In this document: one piece after another, positions 1,801-34,890 of the stretch
How the letters are laid out: each line of letters begins with the position of its first letter
Numbering within the stretch: the first letter of the stretch is position 1
Assembly: GCF_000953825.1 (NCBI RefSeq)
Contig: NZ_BBUL01000091.1
Location: 62,001-126,000 of the forward strand
Direction of reading: 5' to 3'
Source of the DNA: Cellvibrio sp. OA-2007
GTDB lineage: Bacteria > Pseudomonadota > Gammaproteobacteria > Pseudomonadales > Cellvibrionaceae
DNA length: 64,000 bases
Translations under genes and position numbers: made by a program
Notes under the pieces: model-generated
Databases searched by the model: none
Told to the model about the DNA's origin: nothing
The model's input: the letters and a program-made list of their open reading frames with translations, nothing else

Positions 1801-1900
1801 ATGGCTGGCAGTTTTGCGCTGCAGGTCAATATTTGGTCAGTACTGGGCTATTCTTGCATGCTGTACGTAAAAAGGGGGTTGATGTAGTATCGCTCCCTTA

Positions 1901-1916
1901 TTGCATAAATATGCAA
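1901..1916. promoter_or_regulatory. Variant LacI-type operator at the regulator gene
   Basis: TTGCATAAATATGCAA matches the regulon operator TTGCATACGTATGCAA at 14 of 16 positions. Only the central CG step is changed, to AA. It lies just 5' of the LacI gene and overlaps the ATG at 1911, which argues that translation starts further downstream. It is probably a weak autoregulatory site, because LacI proteins usually need the central CpG where the hinge helix inserts. Confidence 0.55.
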
Positions 1917-1961
1917 AACAACAATTACAACAAAAATGGAATCACAGCGAGGGTAAACAAG

Positions 1962-3002
1962 TTGAAAGACGATAAACCCACATCCTTTGATATTGCCTTT
2001 CGCGCCGGGGTGTCCCAGTCCACCGTTTCCCGCGCGTTGCGTAACAGCCCCTTGGTTAACTTGGAAACACGCCTCAAAGTTCAGCAAATTGCCCGCGAAT
2101 TGAATTACAAAGTCGATAAAAACGCGAGCAGCCTGCGTTCCCAGCAGACTAAAACGATTGCACTTTTATTGTGCGAAGATCACGGCACCGGCAACTCCTT
2201 AATCAATCCCTTTTTTCTATCCATGCTCGGTAGTATCACTCGCGCAACGGCGAGTCGCGGGTTCGATTTGTTGATTTCCTTTCAGCAATTCAGTGAGGAC
2301 TGGCATGCGGATTATGAAGATGCTAATCGCGCCGATGGCATTATCTTTTTAGGCTATGGTGACTACGAAACCTTTGTAAAAAAACTCACCTATCTGACGG
2401 AAGTCGGTGCACACTTTATTACCTGGGGGCCAGTACTTGAAGGTCAGCCCGGTGTTTCTATCGGCTGCGATAATTTCAATAGTGCTTACAGCGCCGCACA
2501 ACACTTGCTGTCGCTCGGGCGCAAAAACATCGCGTTCCTTGGTGATGTCTCTGAACACAGCCCTGAATTCTCTGATCGCTATCGCGGCTTCTGCAAAGCA
2601 TTGCAAGAGGCCGGAATTGAAGTGAACCCCAAGTTACAAGTTGCCGCCGAAACTTCGGAAGAAGAAGGCTACAAAGCGACCCTAAGTCTGCTGCAGCGCC
2701 GCCTGCCATTTGATGCCATTTTCGGCGCAAGTGATTTGATCGCCATAGGTGCAATGAAAGCATTGGAAGAAGCGGGCATGCATATCCCAAAAGATGTTGC
2801 AGTGATGGGCTTTGACGATATTCCCATGGCCTCCTACACCTATCCACCACTGTCTACAGTGCAGCAAGATACTCTGCTCGCGGGTGAACTATTGGTAGAG
2901 AATTTATTGCTGTTGGTAGATGGCGAAAGACCCGAGTCGATGTTATTACCCGCGAAATTAATTGTGCGCGGTTCCTGTGGGGCAAATCCGGTTAAAAAAT
3001 AA
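1962..3002 (+). CDS. LacI-family transcriptional regulator of the starch/maltodextrin locus
   Basis: The protein has an N-terminal LacI helix-turn-helix ([20 protein letters not shown], about residues 8-27) and a periplasmic-binding-protein-like ligand domain ([10 protein letters not shown] onward; [33 protein letters not shown]). I prefer the TTG at 1962: it has GAGGG 8 nt upstream and gives 346 residues, normal for the family. The frame stays open upstream, with an ATG at 1911 that has no Shine-Dalgarno and lies inside the operator-like palindrome at 1901-1916. It sits next to a maltodextrin locus whose promoters all carry a LacI-type palindrome, so it is the obvious regulator, comparable to MalR of other gammaproteobacteria. 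The ligand (maltose or similar) is inferred. Confidence 0.9.
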
Positions 3003-7647: not shown

Positions 7648-7652
7648 GTGCG

Positions 7653-7666
7653 TGCATACGTATTCA
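7653..7666. promoter_or_regulatory. LacI-type operator 1 (TGCATACGTATTCA)
   Basis: A 14-bp near-palindrome with central CG, proximal to the leftward glucoamylase promoter. Its centre is 17 bp from operator 2. Confidence 0.8.
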
Positions 7667-7669
7667 GCC

Positions 7670-7747: not shown

Positions 7748-7783
7748 ATGTGTTTTTTGCGCGGAATTTACTGTTCGTCTGCT

Positions 7784-7797
7784 TGCATACGTATGTA
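7784..7797. promoter_or_regulatory. LacI-type operator 4 (TGCATACGTATGTA)
   Basis: It ends 5 bp upstream of the candidate -35 box (7803) of the alpha-glucosidase promoter. Confidence 0.8.
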
Positions 7798-7802
7798 GTC
7801 GC

Positions 7803-9818: not shown

Positions 9819-9824
9819 GCGTGT

Positions 9825-9838
9825 TGAATACGTATGCA
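9825..9838. promoter_or_regulatory. LacI-type operator 6 (TGAATACGTATGCA)
   Basis: It ends 5 bp before the candidate -35 of the TonB receptor 1 promoter. Confidence 0.8.
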
Positions 9839-9843
9839 TTCTA

Positions 9844-12900: not shown

Positions 12901-12934
12901 CCGCCCGTCGAGCCGATTTGACGGGCGGTTTTTT
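12901..12934 (+). terminator. Intrinsic terminator after TonB receptor 1
   Basis: A 9-bp GC-rich stem CCGCCCGTC / GACGGGCGG with a 10-nt loop is followed by TTTTTT. It lies inside an otherwise continuous gene cluster, so it probably sets receptor mRNA well above the downstream genes. Confidence 0.85.
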
Positions 12935-16441: not shown

Positions 16442-19400
16442 ATGAAAACAAAAAATATATACGCTGGCATATGGATTTTTTTTGTTGCACTGGTGTGCGC
16501 GCCGCTCAACGCTAAAACCCTGAGCCAGGCATCACCCAGCGGCAATATTATCTTTTCTGTGAATGATGACACTGGAACACCCGTTTATTCGGTGAAGTAT
16601 CGCGGTAATGACATTATCAAACCGTCGCATTTGGGTTTGGAATTTAACAATATTGATGGCTTTGTACGCGATTTGAAAATTGCATCGCACACCAGCGCAT
16701 CGGCTGATTCAACCTGGGAGCAACCCTGGGGCGAGCAGCGGCTGATGCGCGATCATCACAATGAACTCCTGCTCACGTTTAGCGGAATTCACAACACTAA
16801 AAAAATAATGAATCTGCGCGTGCGGGTGTTTGATGATGGTGTAGGTTTTCGCTATGAGGTGCCCGAGCAAAAAGGTCTGACTAAAAAGTCAAATAGCGCG
16901 ATTGAAATCATCGACGAGAAAACCGAATTTGTTATTCCTGAGCCCACGCAAACTACGGCGTGGTGGATTCCCGGCCGCGGCTGGAATCGCTATGAGTATT
17001 TATATAATACAGCCGCGCTAACGAAGGTTGACCGCGCACACACGCCCTTCACGTTTAAATTGCCCTCGGGTGTGCATGTCAGTATTCACGAGGCGGCACT
17101 GACGGATTATGCCGCAATGGTATTGGATCAACAGCGCGACGGTGTATTAAAGGCCGATCTCACGCCTTGGTCAGATGGCATTAAAGTCAAAACCCAACTT
17201 GGGTTTACATCATCATGGCGCACCATTCAAATTGCCGATAATGCAGCGGGCTTAATTAATTCCAGTTTAATTTTAAATTTAAATGAGCCGAATAAACTGG
17301 GCGATGTCAGTTGGGTAAAACCGGGTAAATATATTGGCATCTGGTGGGGCATGCACCTGAATAAAAATACCTGGGGTTCGGGGCCAAAACACGGTGCCAC
17401 TACCGAAAATACCAAAGCCTATATAGATTTTGCTGCGCAATACGGATTTGATGGTGTATTAGTCGAAGGCTGGAATGAAGGTTGGGATGGCGACTGGTTT
17501 TATAACGGCGATGTATTTAGCTTTACCAAACCCTATAAGGATTTTGATATAGCCGACATCACTCGTTATGGGTTGAGTAAAGGTGTGCGCTTGATCGGGC
17601 ATCACGAAACTTCCGGCGCAGTGACCAACTATAAAAACCAAATGAGTGATGCCTATGACTTGTATAAAAAATACGGCGTCACACAAATCAAAACCGGTTA
17701 TGTCGCCGATGGCGGTAAAGCAAAGCGTATCGACGAAAACGGCATAGCACGCAACGAATGGCACGATGGCCAATTTATGGTGGGCGAGTATTTGCGCTCG
17801 GTCACCGAGGCAGCAAAACGACACATCAGCATTAATACTCACGAGCCGATTAAAGACACAGGTTTGCGCCGCACTTATCCCAACTGGATTGCGCGCGAAG
17901 GTGCACGCGGTCAGGAATATAACGCGTGGGGCTCGCCGCCCAATTCGCCTGAGCATACGGTGATGTTGCCCTACACCCGTTTGTTGGCTGGCCCTATGGA
18001 TTACACGCCGGGTATTTTTAATCTCGCACCCTATGGGCTGGATGCAGAAAACCGTGTGCAATCTACCCTTGCAAAAGAGCTGGCGCTCTACGTGATTATT
18101 TACAGTCCCATCCAAATGGCGGCGGATTTAATTGAAAATTATCTGCAGCCCGATGGCAAAACAATTAAGCCCGCCTTTCAATTTATTCTCGATGTACCTA
18201 CCGATTGGGAAACGTCAAAGGCGCTTGCCGGTGAGGTAGGGGACTACACGGTAATCGCGCGCAAAGAGCGTAATGGGCAGGATTGGTATCTAGGGGCAAT
18301 TACCGATGAACATGCGCGTGATATTTCAGTTTCACTCGATTTTCTCGATGAAAATAAACAATACGAAGCGCAAATTTATCGCGATGGCGCCAAAGCCGAA
18401 TGGAAAACTAATCCTTACGATATGGTCATTGAAAAGAAAATTGTTACGGCCAAAGACGTGCTGAATTTTAAGTTGGGCACCAGCGGCGGTGTTGCGATTC
18501 GGTTTAAAGCACTGCCACAACAAGGTAAGCCTGTCGTCTACCAAATTTTTACGCGCCTTTACGGCAACACCAATAAGACCAATAAACCCTGGGGTACGAT
18601 TGAAGAAAATGGTGTGGGGAAATTTAATGATATTAATGAAACTGCACTCAAATCGATTAAAGCCTTGGGTGTGACCCATGTGTGGTATACCGGTGTGCCA
18701 CACCATGCGGTGATTCGTGATTACACTGCCTATGGCATCAGCAATGACGACCCGGATGTTGTAAAAGGTCGCGCTGGTTCGCCCTATGCGGTGAAAGATT
18801 ATTACAACGTAAATCCCGACCTTGCGGTTGACCCCGCCAAACGCCTGCAAGAATTTGAAGACTTAATTGCGCGCACTCATGCGCAGGGCATGAAAGTTAT
18901 TATCGATATAGTGCCCAATCATATCGCGCGTGCGTACCACTCATTGAGTAAACCTGCCGGCGTTACAGATTTCGGTGCGCTTGATGACACAACAGTTGAA
19001 TATGCGCGCGATAATAATTTCTATTATGTGGTCGGTGAAAACTTTAAAGTCCCGGAAGCACAAAACAACTATCGTCCATTAGGCGGTGAATCGCATCCAC
19101 TTAGCGATGGGAAATTTGCAGAAAACCCTGCCAAGTGGACTGGCAATGGTTCACGCCTTGCTCAGCCGAAATTTGATGACTGGTATGAAACAGTAAAAAT
19201 TAATTACGGCGTACGCCCGGATGGCAGTAAAGATTTTCCTGAATTACCTGCAGGCTACGCACAAAAAAGCGTGCAGGAACATTATCGGTTCTGGAAAGGG
19301 AAATCCGTTCCAAATTCCTGGATTAAATTCCGCCAGATCGCCGAGTATTGGTTAAGTAAAGGCGTTGATGGTTTCCGTTACGATATGGCGGAAATGGTGC

Positions 19401-20293
19401 CGGTGGAATTCTGGAGTTATTTAAACTCAGCGATCAAACAACAAAATCCCGATGCGTTTTTGTTGGCAGAGGTCTACAACCCGCAGGAATACCGCAATTA
19501 TATTCGTCTGGGAAAAATGGATTATCTGTACGATAAAGTAGAAATGTACGATAGCTTAAAAGCGATTATGCAAGGTAAAGCCGGTACCGATGTGATCGCT
19601 AAGGTGCAAGCGGGCATGAGCGATATTGAAGAGCATATGTTGCATTTTTTGGAAAACCACGACGAACAGCGCATCGCCAGCCCGGAGTTTGCAGGCAGTG
19701 CGGAAAAAGCCAAACCGGCGATGGTGGTCTCTGCGTTAATCAGTCGCTCACCTACCATGTTGTATTTCGGTCAGGAGGTGGGTGAAGCGGGGGCGTTGAA
19801 TTCCGGTTTTGGCAGTGCATCGCGCACCACCATTTTTGATTATGCCGGTGTACCTGCACACCAACGCTTTATGAATGCCGGAAAATTTGATGCGGGCCAA
19901 TCAACAGCAGAAGAAAAATCCCTATTGGCATTTTATCGTCAGCTGTTAACGCTCTCTGCTACTGAATCGGGTTTTAACGGTGAATATCGCGAACTGCATT
20001 CATTCAATCTTGCGCAAGCGAAAGGCTACGATGAAAAAGTATTTTCTTTTGCCCGTTGGGATTCAGAACAGAAATGGTTGGTGGTGAGCAATTTCAGTGC
20101 AACAGAAGCAAGAAAGTTTAATTTGCAACTAACACCAGAGTTGGTGAATGTGTGGAATCTTTCTGGTAAGTCGCGATTACATTCGCGATTGGATAAGGAC
20201 AAGACCTACGAATTGAGTGTGAATGATAAGCATGCTCATGTTGCAATACAGTTGGCTCCGTTGGAATCAGTGGTGTTGCTATTACAAAAGTAA
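16442..20293 (+). CDS. GH97-GH13 fusion: alpha-glucosidase plus alpha-amylase-type domain
   Basis: 1283 residues with a signal peptide ending near LNAKT (about 25). Residues about 27-690 are a full GH97 (SusB-like) unit: an N-terminal sandwich, EFVIPEPTQTTAWWIPGRG, a catalytic barrel with LVEGWNEGW (E342), NTHEPI (E468) and GQEYNAWG (E492). The Glu set is that of inverting alpha-glucosidases. Residues about 696-1283 are a complete GH13 unit: PVVYQIFTRLYG, DIVPNHIAR (822-830), GVDGFRYDMAE with D981, LLAEVYNP with E1010, and ENHDEQR with D1074, plus a C-terminal sandwich. Both catalytic sets look intact. The fusion should cut and trim dextrins in the periplasm in one polypeptide, equivalent to SusA plus SusB. 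Confidence 0.9.
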   Translation: MKTKNIYAGIWIFFVALVCAPLNAKTLSQASPSGNIIFSVNDDTGTPVYSVKYRGNDIIKPSHLGLEFNNIDGFVRDLKIASHTSASADSTWEQPWGEQRLMRDHHNELLLTFSGIHNTKKIMNLRVRVFDDGVGFRYEVPEQKGLTKKSNSAIEIIDEKTEFVIPEPTQTTAWWIPGRGWNRYEYLYNTAALTKVDRAHTPFTFKLPSGVHVSIHEAALTDYAAMVLDQQRDGVLKADLTPWSDGIKVKTQLGFTSSWRTIQIADNAAGLINSSLILNLNEPNKLGDVSWVKPGKYIGIWWGMHLNKNTWGSGPKHGATTENTKAYIDFAAQYGFDGVLVEGWNEGWDGDWFYNGDVFSFTKPYKDFDIADITRYGLSKGVRLIGHHETSGAVTNYKNQMSDAYDLYKKYGVTQIKTGYVADGGKAKRIDENGIARNEWHDGQFMVGEYLRSVTEAAKRHISINTHEPIKDTGLRRTYPNWIAREGARGQEYNAWGSPPNSPEHTVMLPYTRLLAGPMDYTPGIFNLAPYGLDAENRVQSTLAKELALYVIIYSPIQMAADLIENYLQPDGKTIKPAFQFILDVPTDWETSKALAGEVGDYTVIARKERNGQDWYLGAITDEHARDISVSLDFLDENKQYEAQIYRDGAKAEWKTNPYDMVIEKKIVTAKDVLNFKLGTSGGVAIRFKALPQQGKPVVYQIFTRLYGNTNKTNKPWGTIEENGVGKFNDINETALKSIKALGVTHVWYTGVPHHAVIRDYTAYGISNDDPDVVKGRAGSPYAVKDYYNVNPDLAVDPAKRLQEFEDLIARTHAQGMKVIIDIVPNHIARAYHSLSKPAGVTDFGALDDTTVEYARDNNFYYVVGENFKVPEAQNNYRPLGGESHPLSDGKFAENPAKWTGNGSRLAQPKFDDWYETVKINYGVRPDGSKDFPELPAGYAQKSVQEHYRFWKGKSVPNSWIKFRQIAEYWLSKGVDGFRYDMAEMVPVEFWSYLNSAIKQQNPDAFLLAEVYNPQEYRNYIRLGKMDYLYDKVEMYDSLKAIMQGKAGTDVIAKVQAGMSDIEEHMLHFLENHDEQRIASPEFAGSAEKAKPAMVVSALISRSPTMLYFGQEVGEAGALNSGFGSASRTTIFDYAGVPAHQRFMNAGKFDAGQSTAEEKSLLAFYRQLLTLSATESGFNGEYRELHSFNLAQAKGYDEKVFSFARWDSEQKWLVVSNFSATEARKFNLQLTPELVNVWNLSGKSRLHSRLDKDKTYELSVNDKHAHVAIQLAPLESVVLLLQK

Positions 20294-20347
20294 ATACCGT
20301 CACGGCAAGTAATTATTCAATACATTAATAATTGTAAAGAGGATTGC

Positions 20348-20361
20348 TGAATACGTATGTA
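20348..20361. promoter_or_regulatory. LacI-type operator 7 (TGAATACGTATGTA)
   Basis: The only operator upstream of the acyltransferase gene. It ends 5 bp before a candidate -35 box. Confidence 0.75.
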
Positions 20362-20366
20362 GTGAG

Positions 20367-21581: not shown

Positions 21582-21630
21582 GTTACACGGAATTTTTAAA
21601 AATCAATAAGTATTATCTATGGGAGAGTGT

Positions 21631-23475
21631 ATGAAACTGGCAATAACATTATTCATGTTGTTTTGTTCTGTGGGATCGGTGGCTGCCAATTATAAAGTTG
21701 ATCATCTTGAGCCTATGCATTGGTGGGTGGGCATGAATAACCCTCAGTTGCAATTATTGCTGCACGGGAAAAATATCGCCGAACTTGAACCAGAAGTAAA
21801 TTATGACGGCGTATCCTTGCTGGGGGTAGAGCGCACCTCTAATTCCAATTATCTATTTGTTAATTTACAAATTTCACCGGCTGCGAAAGCTGGAGAGCTA
21901 TCAATTCGGTTGATGAAAAACGGTACTCCAGAATTGACGTTGCCTTATCGGTTGGAAAGTCGTTTGGCTGGTTCCGCATTGCGCAGTAGTTTTTCGGCGA
22001 AAGATGCGGTGTATTTGATTACGCCGGATCGCTTTGTCAATGGTGATATTCGCAACGACTCACACGCGGAAATGCTTGAGCACGCAAATAGGATGAACCC
22101 GGTTGGGCGCCACGGCGGTGATATAAAAGGAGTGACAACCGCGTTGAAATACATTGCTGATATGGGTTTTACCATGCTTTGGCCTACACCGCTCATTGAA
22201 AATAATCAGTCTGAATATTCTTATCATGGTTATTCCCCAACAAACTTATACCGGATTGATCCTCGCTTTGGCAGTAATGAGGATTATAGAAAATTGGTTG
22301 CCGCTGCGAATAAACAGGGTATAGGTGTTATCCAGGATATAGTGCTTAATCACATCGGTGATGGGCACTGGTGGATGAAGGATTTACCCGCGAATGATTG
22401 GTTGAATCATCAGACGGGTTTTGTGCCAACAAATAACCAACACACCACAGTGCTGGATATCCATGCTGCCCCCGAAGACCTAAAAATGTTTACTGACGGT
22501 TGGTTTGTAGAATCCATGCCCGATATGAATCAGCGCAATCCTCTGCTGGCAAATTATCTGGTTCAAAATACGATTTGGTGGATTGAATACGCTAATTTGT
22601 CTGGCATCCGTGAAGATACTTATGCGTATTCGGATAAAGCGTTCCTTTCTCGTTGGGTTAAAGCAGTTTTGGATGAGTATCCGAATTTCAACATCGTTGG
22701 GGAAGAAATGAATTCCAATCCGCATATTCTTGCTTATTGGCAAAGAGGTGCTTCTAATCGCGACGGGTATAAATCCAATTTGCCCAGCTTGATGGACTTT
22801 CCGGTTGTGTTTTTGATGCCTGAAGTGCTAAACGCGGAAGAAAGCAGCTCCAGTGGTTTAATCAAACTCTATGAAATGATTGCCAACGATTTTGTCTATG
22901 CTGATGCCATGAGTTTGATGGTGTTTCCTGATAATCATGATATGTCCAGAATCTATTCGTTATTACATGAAAATCTGAATTTGTGGAAAACCTCCATATT
23001 ATTTACTGCTACAACACGTGGCATTCCCCAAATTTATTATGGTACTGAAGTGCTTGCTACCAGCCCAATTGTGCGCGATGACGGTTTATTGCGGTCAGAT
23101 TTTCCTGGTGGTTGGGGTGGTGATAAAGTAAATGCGTTCACAGGAAAAGGATTAACTATGCAGCAACGGGAGGCGCAATCATATTTAAAGAAACTATTGC
23201 AGTGGCGAAAGACGAGTCTGGCCGTCGAAAAAGGAAAGCTGGTTCATTACATTCCAGCCGGAGGTCATTATGTCTACTTTCGCCAACATAAGGATGAGAT
23301 GTTGATGGTAGTGTTGAACAAAAACAAACAACCTTCGCATTTGGCTCTGTCACGCTTTAAATCTATGTTAAATCACAGGACTTCAGGTGTTGATATTATT
23401 TCGGGTAAAAGAATAACCTTGGATGAGTCATTGATTCTTTCCCCTCTTCAGTCGATTGCGATTTCATTTAAGTAA
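21631..23475 (+). CDS. Periplasmic GH13 neopullulanase/cyclomaltodextrinase-like enzyme 2
   Basis: 614 residues from the ATG at 21631, which has GGGAGA just upstream; an in-frame ATG at 21619 lies within that site. A signal peptide ends near VAANY (about 20). Domain order and motifs match the enzyme at 14526-16394: HLEPMHWWVGMNNPQLQLLLHG, IQDIVLNHIG, SGIREDTYAYSD, NIVGEEMNSN, FPDNHDMSR, and a closing sandwich. The two are diverged paralogues rather than a recent duplication. Base composition is somewhat more A+T rich here, so independent acquisition is possible. It should act on maltodextrins or pullulan in the periplasm, co-transcribed with the acyltransferase. Confidence 0.9.
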   Translation: MKLAITLFMLFCSVGSVAANYKVDHLEPMHWWVGMNNPQLQLLLHGKNIAELEPEVNYDGVSLLGVERTSNSNYLFVNLQISPAAKAGELSIRLMKNGTPELTLPYRLESRLAGSALRSSFSAKDAVYLITPDRFVNGDIRNDSHAEMLEHANRMNPVGRHGGDIKGVTTALKYIADMGFTMLWPTPLIENNQSEYSYHGYSPTNLYRIDPRFGSNEDYRKLVAAANKQGIGVIQDIVLNHIGDGHWWMKDLPANDWLNHQTGFVPTNNQHTTVLDIHAAPEDLKMFTDGWFVESMPDMNQRNPLLANYLVQNTIWWIEYANLSGIREDTYAYSDKAFLSRWVKAVLDEYPNFNIVGEEMNSNPHILAYWQRGASNRDGYKSNLPSLMDFPVVFLMPEVLNAEESSSSGLIKLYEMIANDFVYADAMSLMVFPDNHDMSRIYSLLHENLNLWKTSILFTATTRGIPQIYYGTEVLATSPIVRDDGLLRSDFPGGWGGDKVNAFTGKGLTMQQREAQSYLKKLLQWRKTSLAVEKGKLVHYIPAGGHYVYFRQHKDEMLMVVLNKNKQPSHLALSRFKSMLNHRTSGVDIISGKRITLDESLILSPLQSIAISFK

Positions 23476-23484
23476 ATGTTCTCC

Positions 23485-23512
23485 ATACAGGTAATGGCTT
23501 CATTACCTGTAT
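23485..23512 (+). terminator. Hairpin after neopullulanase 2
   Basis: An 11-bp perfect stem ATACAGGTAAT / ATTACCTGTAT with a 6-nt loop starts 9 bp after the stop codon. No T-run follows, so it may protect the mRNA end rather than terminate. Confidence 0.45.
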
Positions 23513-23599
23513 CATCATCCTTCTGCACTACTCGGATATCTTTGTGATTTTTGGTTCTTCTGAATTTTTGTAAAAGTGTTACTTTTATTCCACTTTCGT

Positions 23600-23633
23600 C
23601 CCTTTGCATACGTATGCAAAGGGGCTTTTTTTT
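23600..23633 (+). terminator. Terminator whose stem contains a LacI-type operator
   Basis: Positions 23600-23623 are a perfect 24-bp palindrome (CCCTTTGCAT, ACGT, ATGCAAAGGG) followed by GC and eight T. As RNA it gives a 10-bp stem with a 4-nt loop and a U-run. The middle 14 bp are the consensus operator. Confidence 0.7.
23605..23618. promoter_or_regulatory. LacI-type operator 8 (TGCATACGTATGCA)
   Basis: A perfect consensus palindrome within the terminator stem. Its centre is 41 bp upstream of operator 9. Confidence 0.85.
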
Positions 23634-23645
23634 AACCTGAGTTTT

Positions 23646-23659
23646 TGCATACGTATGTA
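23646..23659. promoter_or_regulatory. LacI-type operator 9 (TGCATACGTATGTA)
   Basis: The proximal operator of the pullulanase-TonB receptor 2 operon, ending 2 bp before a candidate -35 box. Confidence 0.8.
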
Positions 23660-23661
23660 AA

Positions 23662-23690
23662 TTGCGGATGATTTTTTGCACTCATAGACT
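23662..23690 (+). promoter_or_regulatory. Candidate sigma70 promoter of the pullulanase operon
   Basis: TTGCGG (23662-23667) and TAGACT (23685-23690) with a 17-bp spacer, about 100 bp before the start codon. Confidence 0.45.
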
Positions 23691-23787: not shown

Positions 23788-26700
23788 ATGATCATTTCAC
23801 GCGATCTTTTAACACGGCAGAGGTTGGGGCTATTGGCTCTAACATTTGGCGCGTTGCTGCTCAGCGCTTGTGGCGGTGGCAGCGGTACTGACAATAAACA
23901 AACTAATTTTCCCAGCTGCCGCGATCCTTTGGTGTTGTTGGATAACGGCACCTGCGGTGAGCCGCGCGAGCCCTATGTGCCGCCGCCATGCCCCGAAGGC
24001 CAAGTGCGCAATGGCGCAGTTTGTGTAGTGCCAGATTTTCCCGTGCCGGAAAAAATTGCTGGCCCCAATGAAGCGGTTATTTATGTCAATGTCGATAGCG
24101 ACACCAAGTTGGATAGTTTTGCCAGCTACAACCTGCATTTGTGGCAAGACTGCGGCAACGGCTGGGGTAGCACAGTGGTGGATGGCAAAGGTGCCAGTTA
24201 TGCGATTCCGACCACTTGGCCCAATGGCCCGGGTGTGGCGAGTAAAGATGATGGCCCCATCGGCGTAAGACACGACCCCTACTACGGCGCTTATTTTGTG
24301 ATTCCGATTAGCGCTACAGGCACTTGCGGCAATTACATTATTAAAACGCCCGGTGGTGCAGCGCAGACCAACGATTTACAAATCAATATTAAACGTGATG
24401 ACAGCGATTACGCGCGCATGGCCTGGGTGATTATCAACTCAGACAATATGCGCAACAGCCGCGTGAGTGCGTTGCCGATTTGTATTAACGATGTGTGCAG
24501 TTTGAAGCGCCCATTGTTGAGCATTACCGATGTGGAAGCCCATTGGATTAGCCCGCGCACTATCATTTGGAATCGCGAATTTGCGGCAAATAAAAAAGTT
24601 GAAATTTATCGCTCTACCGAAGGTGGTATGACGGCAGCAGACAACGGCAGCATCGCCGGTGGTCAATTGTTGGCGACGCTCAATGCTGGCCGCCCAATGA
24701 CCAATGAAGAGAAGGCCTTGGTGCCGCACTTGGCTTCTTACACCGCGTACGATTTACCGGCGAGCATCTCCCTCGACACCATCAAAGCGGCATTAAAAGA
24801 TGAGCTGTTAATTCTTGGCCGTTACGATTCACTTGAAGAAAACAGCAGTGGGGCGATGGTCAGTGTAGAGCGTGGTCGCGCAACCCGTATTCAATTGCCA
24901 CGGGTATTGGATGCACTGTACACCGCCGGTGTTAATGATGCAGACGAAGCAAAACTCGGCGTGAATTATGCCAATGGTGTGGGCGTTTCGGTGTGGGCAC
25001 CGGCCGCACAAAATGTAGAGTTGCGTATTTATTCGGGCGAGCCATTGCGCTTGGCGGATTCCAAAGCCATGCAGTGGAATGCCAATACCGGTATTTGGAG
25101 TTACACCGGTTCTGCCGCGGAATTGGATCGCAAGTTTTATCGTTTCCGTGTAACCACTTACAACGCGCAAGCGAAAAAAGTACAGCGTTTGGAAGTGACC
25201 GATCCCTATTCCGTATCGCTCGCCAGCAATGGCCGCTATTCACAATTTGTGAATTTGGATGATGCAGATGCAAAACCCGCCGGTTGGGATGGCCACGCCG
25301 TACCGACGGTAGTCGCGCCAGAAGCCATGACTATTTATGAAGGCCATATTCGCGATTTTAGTATCAATGACCAAAGCACGCCGGCGGCGTATCGCGGCAA
25401 ATACATGGCATTTACTGAAGCCAATAGCGCGCCGGTTGCGCATTTGCGCGAGTTAGTGGGTGCGGGTTTAACTCATATGCATTTGCTGCCGAGCAACGAC
25501 AGTTCCAACATCGAAGAAGATGTGAACGCGCAGGTCAATCTGGACAGCTACATTTTTGAGCTCTGCCAAAAAGTGCCGAACAAAGCCTCGGTCAGTGTGT
25601 GCGACGGTTCGGTTAGCAACGGTGCCACTGTGCGCAGTGTGTTGGAAAGTTTTGATCCGCAATCTGACAAAGCTCGCAACTTGATCGCTGCCATCGCCAA
25701 TTTGGATGGTTTCAACTGGGGTTATGACCCGCAGCATTTCAATGCTCCAGAAGGCAGCTATGCCACTAATCCTAACGGCATTACCCGCGTGAAAGAAATG
25801 CGCGCAATGAATATGGCGCTGCATCAACTCGGTTTGCGCGTGGTGATGGATGTGGTGTATCCGCACACAGTGTCATCGGGCAATCAGGCGGCCAACTCGG
25901 TCTTCGATAAAGTCGTGCCCGGTTATTACTATCGCACCAATCCCGCAACTGGCGAGCCGGAAACCGGCACCGGTGCCGGTCCAGATACCGCCACTGAGCA
26001 TCGCATGATGGGCAAGTTTGTGGCTGACTCTGTGGTGCAATGGGCACAGGCCTACAAAGTAGACGGCTTCCGTTTTGACCAGTCTGGTTATATGCCGAAA
26101 TCCGTTTTGGTCGATGCCTACAACGCGGTGAAAGCGGTTGACCCAGATAACTACTTCTACGCCGAAGCCTGGACACCCGGTGGTGGTTCCTCGGGCGATC
26201 GCATTGCTGAGCGCTCAGTGCAGGAGGCATTAGCCGGTACGGGTATAGGCACTTTCAATGACCGCCTGCGCAATCCGCTGCAGCAGATGGCATTGGTCAA
26301 AGGCGATAGTTTGGATGCAGTGCGCGCCGGTCTGGCGGGCAACCTGAAAGACTTTATGCTCAAAACCAAATCCGGTGCGGTAATCAAGGCGGCAACTGTG
26401 GGTGCTTACAACTTGGATCCGCAAGAAGCCATCAACTACGTTGAAAAGCACGATAACGAAACCCTGTGGGACTGGATGCATCGCCCGGGCGCATTGCCTA
26501 GCGATATGTCGCTCGCCAATCGTGTGCGGGTCGATAGCCTGACCCTGTCAGTGCCGCTGTTGAGCCAAGGTGTGCCGTTTATCCAAATGGGTAGCGACCT
26601 GCTGCGCTCTAAATCCATGTCGCCTAATAGCTACAACGCGGGCGATTGGTTTAACGCGGTGGATTTCACCAAACAAAACAACAACTGGGCCGTCGGCCTG

Positions 26701-28269
26701 CCGCCAGAATTGCGCGATGGCGTGACTGATGCGCATGTCAAAACCCTGTTTGCCAACCCCAATACCAAGCCGATGGCCACCGATATTGCCAAGTCGTCTG
26801 CAGTGTTCAACGAGTTCCTCAAAATCGCCTCGGGCAGCCCGTTGTTCAGCTTGCAAACCGCTGAGCAGGTCATGGATCGCGTCGGCTTCCACGACGGCGG
26901 CAAAACTCAGGTTGCCGGTCTGATTGTGATGAGTATCGATGACGGTGTTGGCACGGTTTCCGGTACCAGCGCAACCGCCCGTGCCGATTTGGATGCCGCG
27001 GTAAATGCCATTGTGGTGGTCGTCAACGCGACCGCAACGGCGCAATCGCCCAAGGTTAAAACTGCCAGTGGTTTTGTATTGCATCAAGTGCAGCAAAACT
27101 CGGCTGACGCCACAGTGCGCAACGCCAGCTTTGCCGTCGATGGTGAAAACGGTGTGTTTACAGTGCCTGCCTACACCACCGCTGTCTTTGTGAAACCGCA
27201 AGCGGGTGCACAGGGTATGGGCTTGGCGGCGAACGTGACTATAGGTTCCAGTGTGGCCGTGCCCTATGGCGATACCGCGCTCTATGTGCGTGGCGATGTG
27301 TCTGCCGCCGGTTGGGATGCCACCGCAGCCAACCGTATGACCTACGAAGGTGATGGCATCTACGCGGTGTACCTCAATGTCACTGCTGGCGCCCATAACT
27401 TTAAAGTGGCTGAAGCCAATTGGAGCAACCCAAACCTGGGCTCCAATCAGCCAATCGAAGTGGGTGGCAGCATCACTCTGGCGCAGGGCAGCAACGACAA
27501 TATCGCGATTAACGTTGCCACCTCTGGCACTTATCGCTTCGAGTTGGATGCGTCATCCAGCACCAGCGCACCGACCTTGAAAGTGATTGACCCAGACACC
27601 TACAAGGCGACTTCGGTCTACCTGCGCGGCACCGTCACGGCGTCCGGCTGGGGCGATACCAATTCCGGTAACAAGTTGGTCCATGAAGGTAAGAGTATCT
27701 ACGCCATCAGCGTGGCCATGACCCCGGGCGACTATATGTTCAAGGTCGCATCGAGTGACTGGAGCACAGTCAACTTGGGCTCGGCTACGGCGGTGACACT
27801 GGGTGATTACGTCGGCCTGACGCAAGGCAGCAACGACAACTTGCTGCTGACCGTTGCCACAGCGGGTAACTATCGCTTTGAAGTGGATGCCAGAAACCCA
27901 GCCGCGCCTGCGATCAAGGTGTATCGCGAAGACTTGTTTGCCGCTACCCCCGTCTACCTGCGCGGCACTGTGTCCTCGTCTGGCTGGGGCGATACCAACA
28001 GCGTCAACCGCCTCAACTACGTGGGTAAAGGGCTTTATACCCAAACCCTGACCATGGCCGCGGGCGATTACATGTTCAAAGTGGCAGAGGCTAATTGGAG
28101 CAACCCCAACCTGGGTGGTTCCGCGGCGGTGTTGGGGCAACCCACCGAGCTGACCCAAGGCTCCAACGACAATATCGGCCTGAGCATTACCACTGCCGGT
28201 GACTACCGCTTCACGCTGGATACCAGCAGCCAAAACGCCATCACCATCACCGTTGATGCGCTGAATTAA
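23788..28269 (+). CDS. Pullulanase-type GH13 lipoprotein with three C-terminal repeat modules
   Basis: 1493 residues from the ATG at 23788; the open frame extends upstream without a ribosome binding site. A lipobox LLLSAC lies near residue 28. Order: a Cys-rich spacer, a CBM41-like starch-binding domain (EAVIYVNVDSD...NLHLWQDCGNGW), an N2-type domain, a CBM48-like domain (GVGVSVWAPAAQNVELRIY), and the GH13 barrel with VVMDVVYPHT, VDGFRFDQSG (D764), YFYAEAWTP (E793) and VEKHDNETLWD (D889). After the barrel come three repeats of about 110 residues. It should cleave alpha-1,6 branches of amylopectin or pullulan at the cell surface. It is followed by TonB receptor 2 after 68 bp, so enzyme and importer are co-expressed. 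Confidence 0.92.
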   Translation: MIISRDLLTRQRLGLLALTFGALLLSACGGGSGTDNKQTNFPSCRDPLVLLDNGTCGEPREPYVPPPCPEGQVRNGAVCVVPDFPVPEKIAGPNEAVIYVNVDSDTKLDSFASYNLHLWQDCGNGWGSTVVDGKGASYAIPTTWPNGPGVASKDDGPIGVRHDPYYGAYFVIPISATGTCGNYIIKTPGGAAQTNDLQINIKRDDSDYARMAWVIINSDNMRNSRVSALPICINDVCSLKRPLLSITDVEAHWISPRTIIWNREFAANKKVEIYRSTEGGMTAADNGSIAGGQLLATLNAGRPMTNEEKALVPHLASYTAYDLPASISLDTIKAALKDELLILGRYDSLEENSSGAMVSVERGRATRIQLPRVLDALYTAGVNDADEAKLGVNYANGVGVSVWAPAAQNVELRIYSGEPLRLADSKAMQWNANTGIWSYTGSAAELDRKFYRFRVTTYNAQAKKVQRLEVTDPYSVSLASNGRYSQFVNLDDADAKPAGWDGHAVPTVVAPEAMTIYEGHIRDFSINDQSTPAAYRGKYMAFTEANSAPVAHLRELVGAGLTHMHLLPSNDSSNIEEDVNAQVNLDSYIFELCQKVPNKASVSVCDGSVSNGATVRSVLESFDPQSDKARNLIAAIANLDGFNWGYDPQHFNAPEGSYATNPNGITRVKEMRAMNMALHQLGLRVVMDVVYPHTVSSGNQAANSVFDKVVPGYYYRTNPATGEPETGTGAGPDTATEHRMMGKFVADSVVQWAQAYKVDGFRFDQSGYMPKSVLVDAYNAVKAVDPDNYFYAEAWTPGGGSSGDRIAERSVQEALAGTGIGTFNDRLRNPLQQMALVKGDSLDAVRAGLAGNLKDFMLKTKSGAVIKAATVGAYNLDPQEAINYVEKHDNETLWDWMHRPGALPSDMSLANRVRVDSLTLSVPLLSQGVPFIQMGSDLLRSKSMSPNSYNAGDWFNAVDFTKQNNNWAVGLPPELRDGVTDAHVKTLFANPNTKPMATDIAKSSAVFNEFLKIASGSPLFSLQTAEQVMDRVGFHDGGKTQVAGLIVMSIDDGVGTVSGTSATARADLDAAVNAIVVVVNATATAQSPKVKTASGFVLHQVQQNSADATVRNASFAVDGENGVFTVPAYTTAVFVKPQAGAQGMGLAANVTIGSSVAVPYGDTALYVRGDVSAAGWDATAANRMTYEGDGIYAVYLNVTAGAHNFKVAEANWSNPNLGSNQPIEVGGSITLAQGSNDNIAINVATSGTYRFELDASSSTSAPTLKVIDPDTYKATSVYLRGTVTASGWGDTNSGNKLVHEGKSIYAISVAMTPGDYMFKVASSDWSTVNLGSATAVTLGDYVGLTQGSNDNLLLTVATAGNYRFEVDARNPAAPAIKVYREDLFAATPVYLRGTVSSSGWGDTNSVNRLNYVGKGLYTQTLTMAAGDYMFKVAEANWSNPNLGGSAAVLGQPTELTQGSNDNIGLSITTAGDYRFTLDTSSQNAITITVDALN
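27283..28266 (+). repeat. Three tandem modules encoded at the pullulanase C-terminus
   Basis: Three consecutive units, beginning near 27283, 27616 and 27952, each start (L/V)Y(V/L)RG, contain a GWD/GWGDTN motif, an NFKVA/YMFKVA strand followed by xxWS, and TQGSNDN. They look like beta-sandwich modules, probably starch-binding, but I cannot assign a CBM family. Confidence 0.7.
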
Positions 28270-34236: not shown

Positions 34237-34890
34237 ATGATTAGATCAATGTTAAAGATAGTATTCTGGGGTAGCTTTTTCGTTCTGTTTGGATGCAGAT
34301 TCAAAAGTATTGATATGAAAATTGACGATGCGTATATTGTTAAAAAAAGCGACATACGCGCGTATGTCGGTGATGATATTGATGGTGATTGGGTGAAAAA
34401 AAGAATTGATGGTGATTTTCTGGTGGTTGACATTAGCACAAAACAAGACCTGGTGCTTTTTCAAAAACAACATACTGCTGGGATGTTTCATCAAGCGCAT
34501 TTTTGCCAACAACCAATGATTGTTTCTCCATTAGTTATTGGTGGCGTTTATTTAAAAGGTAAGGAGGTAATCAAGTATTTGTGGGCATCATCGTCGCTCC
34601 ATGATGTCAAAAATAGCCAAAAAGAAAGCGGCTGGTATAAGTATAACGTTGTTTTTTTTACGAGATTTGATCAGGATATTCCCTTGTACGAAGAACAAAT
34701 AATGGACAAACGGCAAAAAAATTATGAAAAATTTGATCTTCGTAAGCAACCAGAAGATATATGTTTTGAAATTGGGAATGCTGGCATGATGGTTTCGTAT
34801 TTATCGAACACGGCTAGATTAACTAAAGACCAAATTAAACAAGCATTTGAAGGAGAAATCATAAGTAGTTCAGACACCTTGAAAAAATAA
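34237..34890 (+). CDS. Putative lipoprotein immunity protein for the lipase-like Rhs tip
   Basis: 217 residues beginning MIRSMLKIVFWGSFFVLFGC, a lipoprotein-type signal with Cys20 (lipobox LFGC, slightly atypical). The remainder is a soluble, mixed-charge domain with no family I recognise. It begins 11 bp after the hydrolase tip. Known lipase effectors of type VI systems are commonly neutralised by periplasmic or lipoprotein immunity proteins, so location and anchoring agree. A+T-rich codon usage matches the tip rather than the neighbouring chromosome. A terminator follows. Confidence 0.65.
   Translation: MIRSMLKIVFWGSFFVLFGCRFKSIDMKIDDAYIVKKSDIRAYVGDDIDGDWVKKRIDGDFLVVDISTKQDLVLFQKQHTAGMFHQAHFCQQPMIVSPLVIGGVYLKGKEVIKYLWASSSLHDVKNSQKESGWYKYNVVFFTRFDQDIPLYEEQIMDKRQKNYEKFDLRKQPEDICFEIGNAGMMVSYLSNTARLTKDQIKQAFEGEIISSSDTLKK

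Follow-up and report, generated by a model that had tools for sequence, protein, structure and literature searches.

A palindromic operator upstream of a Cellvibrio pullulanase gene that probably also forms an intrinsic terminator

DNA uptake sequences inside transcription terminators were reportedly described by Ambur et al. in 2007. In Neisseria and the Pasteurellaceae, according to the available parts of PMC2346458, these sequences are a case in which a short motif recognised by a protein supplies the stem of a terminator, as does the operator described here, and their terminator role is there termed contentious; in the same parts the stem is made of inverted copies of a motif that serves DNA uptake, whereas the present site is a single palindromic operator serving regulation. 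For LacI-family sugar regulons, the available parts of PMC4052901 give as the operator rule an even palindrome of 16-22 nt with a central CG, features that our site shares along with the carbohydrate genes and the local regulator; operators in terminators are not discussed there, the word 'terminator' occurring 0 times in the text. Closest in another respect is the Lac repressor, a LacI-family protein that forms a roadblock when it sits on an operator ahead of polymerase, with read-through in one reporter of 13%, or about 25% without Mfd (PMC6593788, available parts); in that system the block depends on the protein together with Mfd, with no intrinsic terminator within the operator mentioned in those parts, while a roadblock at the present site is hypothetical. 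An ordinary Rho-independent terminator shares the stem, the small loop, the T8 tract and the position at the end of a gene or operon; here, a conserved operator provides the core of the stem. Among the matches listed, a search of the open-licence literature found no case of an operator within an intrinsic terminator.

The site lies in a 64-kb window (the whole stretch of DNA analysed, 64,000 nucleotides from Cellvibrio sp. OA-2007), between a neopullulanase-like gene and a pullulanase-type gene. We put at about 0.6 the probability that its distal operator, op1, is a dual-use site, an operator as DNA and an intrinsic terminator as RNA, co-opted in this lineage. The features concerned are the following.

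1833-3002, + strand: LacI-family regulator gene, the likely operator binder
20347-20362, + strand: operator 5' of the acyltransferase and neopullulanase 2 genes, with -35- and -10-like elements
21619-23475, + strand: neopullulanase-like gene 2, the transcript of which would stop at the terminator
23576-23586, + strand: conserved element GTGTTACTTTT upstream of op1, from the orthologue alignment
23598-23625, + strand: predicted terminator hairpin with 12 pairs closing a 4-nt loop, the outermost being G-C and U-G
23600-23623, no strand: perfect 24-bp palindrome, from the palindrome search
23604-23619, no strand: op1, the distal operator, a perfect 16-bp consensus with 0 mismatches
23626-23633, + strand: T8 tract, where RNA 3' ends are predicted, T score 4.66
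23645-23660, no strand: op2, the proximal operator, abutting the predicted -35
23662-23667, + strand: predicted pullulanase -35, TTGCGG, of which TTGCG is invariant in 11 aligned orthologues
23685-23690, + strand: predicted -10, TAGACT, after a 17-bp spacer, invariant in 11 aligned orthologues
23788-28269, + strand: pullulanase-type gene, start as searched (the true start may differ)

A preliminary description of this DNA had pointed to a palindrome enclosing the consensus operator, with GC and eight T behind it, and this was borne out over all 24 bp without a mismatch, GC occupying 23624-23625 and T8 the following positions. With its half-length of 12, the palindrome is the longest in the window, the runners-up having half-lengths of 10 and 9. 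Complementarity extends from the centre for 12 steps, or 14 when the outer G-U and G-C are counted. The RNA of 23590-23640 was predicted to fold as a single hairpin of -19.3 kcal/mol (z -5.32), a value equalled or bettered by 0 of 200 shuffles; across analyses the energy of the op1 hairpin ranged from -17.9 to -19.3. In a scan of 14-32 kb for terminator-like sites, which overall stood near shuffle level (26 matches against 23.5), op1 had the most pairs (12), and under stricter criteria applied to all 64 kb it ranked third among 27 matches in stem energy (-17.9) and second in T score. The likelihood of such features arising by chance was assessed through a random-flank model in which the 16-mer was held fixed and flanks were drawn from shuffled local DNA: in 80,000 draws the probability was 0.0034 for a half-length of at least 12, 0.043 for at least 7 T in 8, and 0.0002 for both together.

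The op1 hairpin thus has the make-up of an intrinsic terminator, a stable stem-loop containing G+C with a T-tract immediately after it, and stands 3' of a co-directional gene, the stem beginning 123 bp past the neopullulanase 2 stop. Since the T-tract is present on the + strand only, a stop here would act on transcription coming from neopullulanase 2; no reverse-strand terminator was found at op1. An Rfam scan of the window returned nothing at gathering thresholds. An attenuator or antiterminator was considered and rejected, the leader 23470-23634 keeping the terminator intact in both its best and centroid folds; op1 and op2 are able to pair, but op2 sits downstream. A further very strong terminator-like site occurs at 12901-12928, separating a TonB-dependent receptor gene from the one that follows, probably of the tryptophan-halogenase type, where it would split a set of genes resembling one operon.

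As to the operator, it looks real by its form, its conservation and its company. TTGCATACGTATGCAA is an even palindrome with a central CG and a length in the LacI-family range, it is conserved at orthologous promoters, and it co-occurs with the regulator gene. Operator-like sites with no more than 3 mismatches number 8 in the window against 0.60 expected, a figure reached in 0 of 100 shuffles. Allowing up to 1 mismatch, the 16-mer was found in 18 of 37 genomes, namely 18 of the 21 from the genus (the window's own included) and 0 of the 16 outside it. An orthologue of the regulator with at least 73% identity is present in 20 of the 21 genus genomes; the exception, G005 (best match only 30%), is also the sole one of the 21 lacking a match to a strict site pattern, one that additionally constrains two flanking bases and so samples sites rather than listing them fully.

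Close orthologues of the pullulanase were available from 16 genomes (59-100% identity; in pieces in G002), in which the paired operators are separated by 41-42 bp in 11 and by 19-20 bp in five. The next operator had been placed 41 bp from op1, centre to centre, and so it proves (23604-23619 versus 23645-23660), the same distance being kept in all 11 save G014, with 42 bp. Across the 11 orthologous op1 sites, those without a terminator included, all but one of the 16 operator columns are invariant. The centres of op1 and op2 lie about 85 and 44 bp, respectively, upstream of the predicted transcription start of the pullulanase gene. Also nearly invariant in the 11 is GTGTTACTTTT, about 36 bp before the op1 centre, a distance one base smaller for G014 and G019 in the alignment. 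Elsewhere in the window, an operator-like TTGCATAAATATGCAA at 1901-1916 falls close to the 5' end of the LacI-family frame, which may in truth start further downstream, with the gene perhaps autoregulated, and another perfect palindrome with a different core, CGACATACGCGCGTATGTCG at 34350-34369, is possibly the operator of another regulator.

The terminator is distributed quite differently from the operator. Taking -12 kcal/mol or better as a strong stem, and G000 as the genome of the window, the 30-mers at the 11 op1 sites fold strongly in four (G000 -19.3, G015 -18.9, G010 -15.4 and G011 -12.7), the remaining seven spanning -4.6 to -11.0. A strong stem joined to a strong T-tract is found in G000 only (-17.9, T 4.66). 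G015 comes nearest, with a stem of -18.4, a weaker T-tract (T 2.58) and partly different base pairs; G013 and G002 have weak stems (-7.7 and -6.9), and in the other seven of the 11 a terminator scan in which a T-tract was demanded found nothing at op1. Among the 21 genus genomes the arrangement is therefore confined to G000, save for the weaker-tailed G015. The stem is present without a T-tract in G011, the nearest genome by pullulanase identity (92%), while in G007 and G017 there is a T7 but the stem is not strong; occurring apart in this way, the two features vary independently. The outer pairs are CCC/GGG in G000, CGCC/GGCG in G015, GCC/GGC in G010 and GC/GC in G011, letters that differ and yet pair, which was counted for the terminator reading. 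Over five column pairs, outer-column pairing was weakly above controls (56% against a shuffled 47.8%, with 39 of 500 shuffles at least equal); eight cells were changed on both sides, a count that 4 of 500 shuffles reached, and the covariation score (28 of 500 as high) was the top of seven slides. A search of named genomes for exact occurrences of the 16-mer followed by 1-9 bases and T5, incomplete in that it may omit records near the window's genome and missed the pattern-fitting G007 and G017, yielded 13 stretches, none with a strong hairpin (12 of the 13 non-Cellvibrio; folds -4.6 to -10.6).

Several relatives have a terminator of their own elsewhere in the interval. In G011, G002 and G001, which by regulator identity (96%, 97% and 95%, respectively) are among the nearest relatives, a similar GCGC-containing stem with a T-tract lies about 55-60 bp before op1, and G007 has a separate terminator about 170 bp before it; these four have energies of -12.4 to -20.9 and T scores of 3.6 to 5.1. 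G010 has a candidate (-13.3, T 4.06), G014 and G015 have separate upstream terminators with weaker tails, and G017, G013 and G019 gave weak matches only, G017 being without a good terminator at op1 or elsewhere. In G000, between the neopullulanase 2 stop and op2, nothing beyond -6.0 was found except op1, and there is no counterpart of the relatives' terminators. The preliminary description had looked to related genomes for the extended palindrome together with the T-run. The operator is conserved, the strong stem only in part, and stem plus T-tract are not kept as they would be in a conserved operator-terminator switch. The single strong combination among 11 sites, alongside the separate terminators of several relatives, looks like lineage-specific co-option rather than such a switch.

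The upstream gene also differs. In the 11 orthologous intervals it is of the GH97 type in eight and neopullulanase 2 in G000 and G017 only, the upstream neighbour in G019 being a co-directional frame; outside G000 and G017 the best matches to the neopullulanase 2 protein have at most 59% identity. The window itself contains, at 16442-20293, a single 1283-aa frame combining a GH97 enzyme with an alpha-amylase-type domain. The different upstream gene, the missing separate terminator and the terminator on the operator lead, taken together, to the co-option reading; we infer from them an insertion, a loss and the order of the two. Gene insertion alone cannot explain the change, since G017 shares this upstream gene yet yielded no good terminator at op1.

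On this reading, op1 would be the distal of two operators bound by the LacI-family regulator encoded at 1833-3002, and its transcript the intrinsic terminator of an acyltransferase/neopullulanase 2 operon. It would act as an insulator, the transcript stopping at about 23626-23633 before polymerase can traverse op2 and the pullulanase promoter, and termination need not depend on the regulator. An operator that was already palindromic would have gained G-C pairs and a T-tract in this lineage, close relatives using a separate terminator upstream instead. The proposal that the same bases serve both ends finds good support at the level of sequence, and a double function of op1 is likely.

The manner in which the regulator works bears on how often it and polymerase would meet at op1. 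The genome has 24 operator-like places, of which 14 were analysed (13 with a ATACGTAT core plus C7:63901), the 10 weaker matches without that core being dropped. In five of the 14 sites (28 orientations), TTG lies 12 bp from the centre with TAnnnT 16-18 bp further, the background rate of this layout at that distance being 0.0008 per position (distances 7-15 were scanned); op2 shows the same layout at 9 bp. The activator-like sites are thus six: 7652-7667, 7783-7798, 9824-9839, 20347-20362, 23645-23660 and G000:C78:199645. Five others (op1, C7:69669, C7:69733, C7:71804 and C78:199664) are each the partner of a site close by; C2:196644, C78:79291 and C7:63901 have no such promoter layout. With a nearly fixed operator position just 5' of a -35-like element, the regulator looks placed as an activator, which would fit better than a repressor covering the start. 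If it is bound while both operons are on, polymerases and an occupied op1 would meet often, whereas with a repressor they would do so rarely. A genome-wide habit of placing operators within terminators can be set aside: op1 is the sole site of the 14 in a good terminator, C78:199645 (reverse) having a weak one (-8.9, T 1.65).

Other readings deserve to be weighed against dual use. It is distinctly unlikely that op1 is an operator only, its longer palindrome and T-tract being incidental or there for regulator binding and the upstream transcript ending by Rho, by processing or through the hairpin at 23485-23512. That hairpin, 12 pairs of ATACAGGTAATG/CATTACCTGTAT just past the neopullulanase 2 stop, is the other long stem of the leader fold and resembles one 3' of the GH97-type gene in G014, which has a weak T-tract; it could be the true 3' end of the upstream transcript, but is itself without a T-tract. 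The separate occurrence of stem (G011) and T-tract (G007, G017) likewise suits an operator alone, against which stand the chance of about 2e-4 per site for both features under the random-flank model and the outermost pairs, one of them G-U, which extend past the 16-bp operator. Conversely, op1 might be a terminator only, and by sequence it is a strong one, its operator match having no regulatory role; this is very improbable given the invariance of the operator columns even where the terminator is lacking, and the nearly fixed distance to op2 and the promoter.

Unlikely, and to be held tentatively, is a coupled device in which the regulator on op1 and op2 alters termination, making termination and pullulanase control interdependent. 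The geometry, which involves the distance from the active site of polymerase to its front edge, would allow it in both directions: polymerase ending on the T8 tract is just past op1 and has the first base of op2 12-19 bp downstream (12 bp past the last T). The front edge of a polymerase paused at the T-tract would come close to op2, so that regulator bound there could keep it at the point of release, and every upstream transcript must cross op1 and could strip the regulator off. With an operator and promoter-like elements before the acyltransferase and neopullulanase 2 genes, both operons may answer one regulator. The Lac repressor is a known roadblock (PMC6593788, available parts), and in relatives the separate terminator would mostly keep upstream polymerase from op1. 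Against coupling, a plain repressor of both operons would render upstream transcription and operator occupancy mutually exclusive, so that a roadblock would rarely be met, and the whole arrangement is not conserved among relatives. A fuller version is similarly unlikely: the GH97-type and pullulanase genes became separated by others, and the distal operator became the missing terminator, wiring together two co-regulated operons, so that polymerases clear op1, regulator bound at op2 holds them at the T-tract, and termination, occupancy and pullulanase output are coupled.

Dual use through co-option remains the preferred reading, and makes op1 a candidate case of a palindromic operator turned into a terminator by outer G-C pairs and a T-tract, with the close relatives as the likely 'before' state. 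It would make directly testable whether regulator binding and intrinsic termination at shared bases favour one another, interfere, or act with no mutual effect. Should the two prove independent, there would still be a warning for annotation, in that operators may hide in terminators and vice versa.
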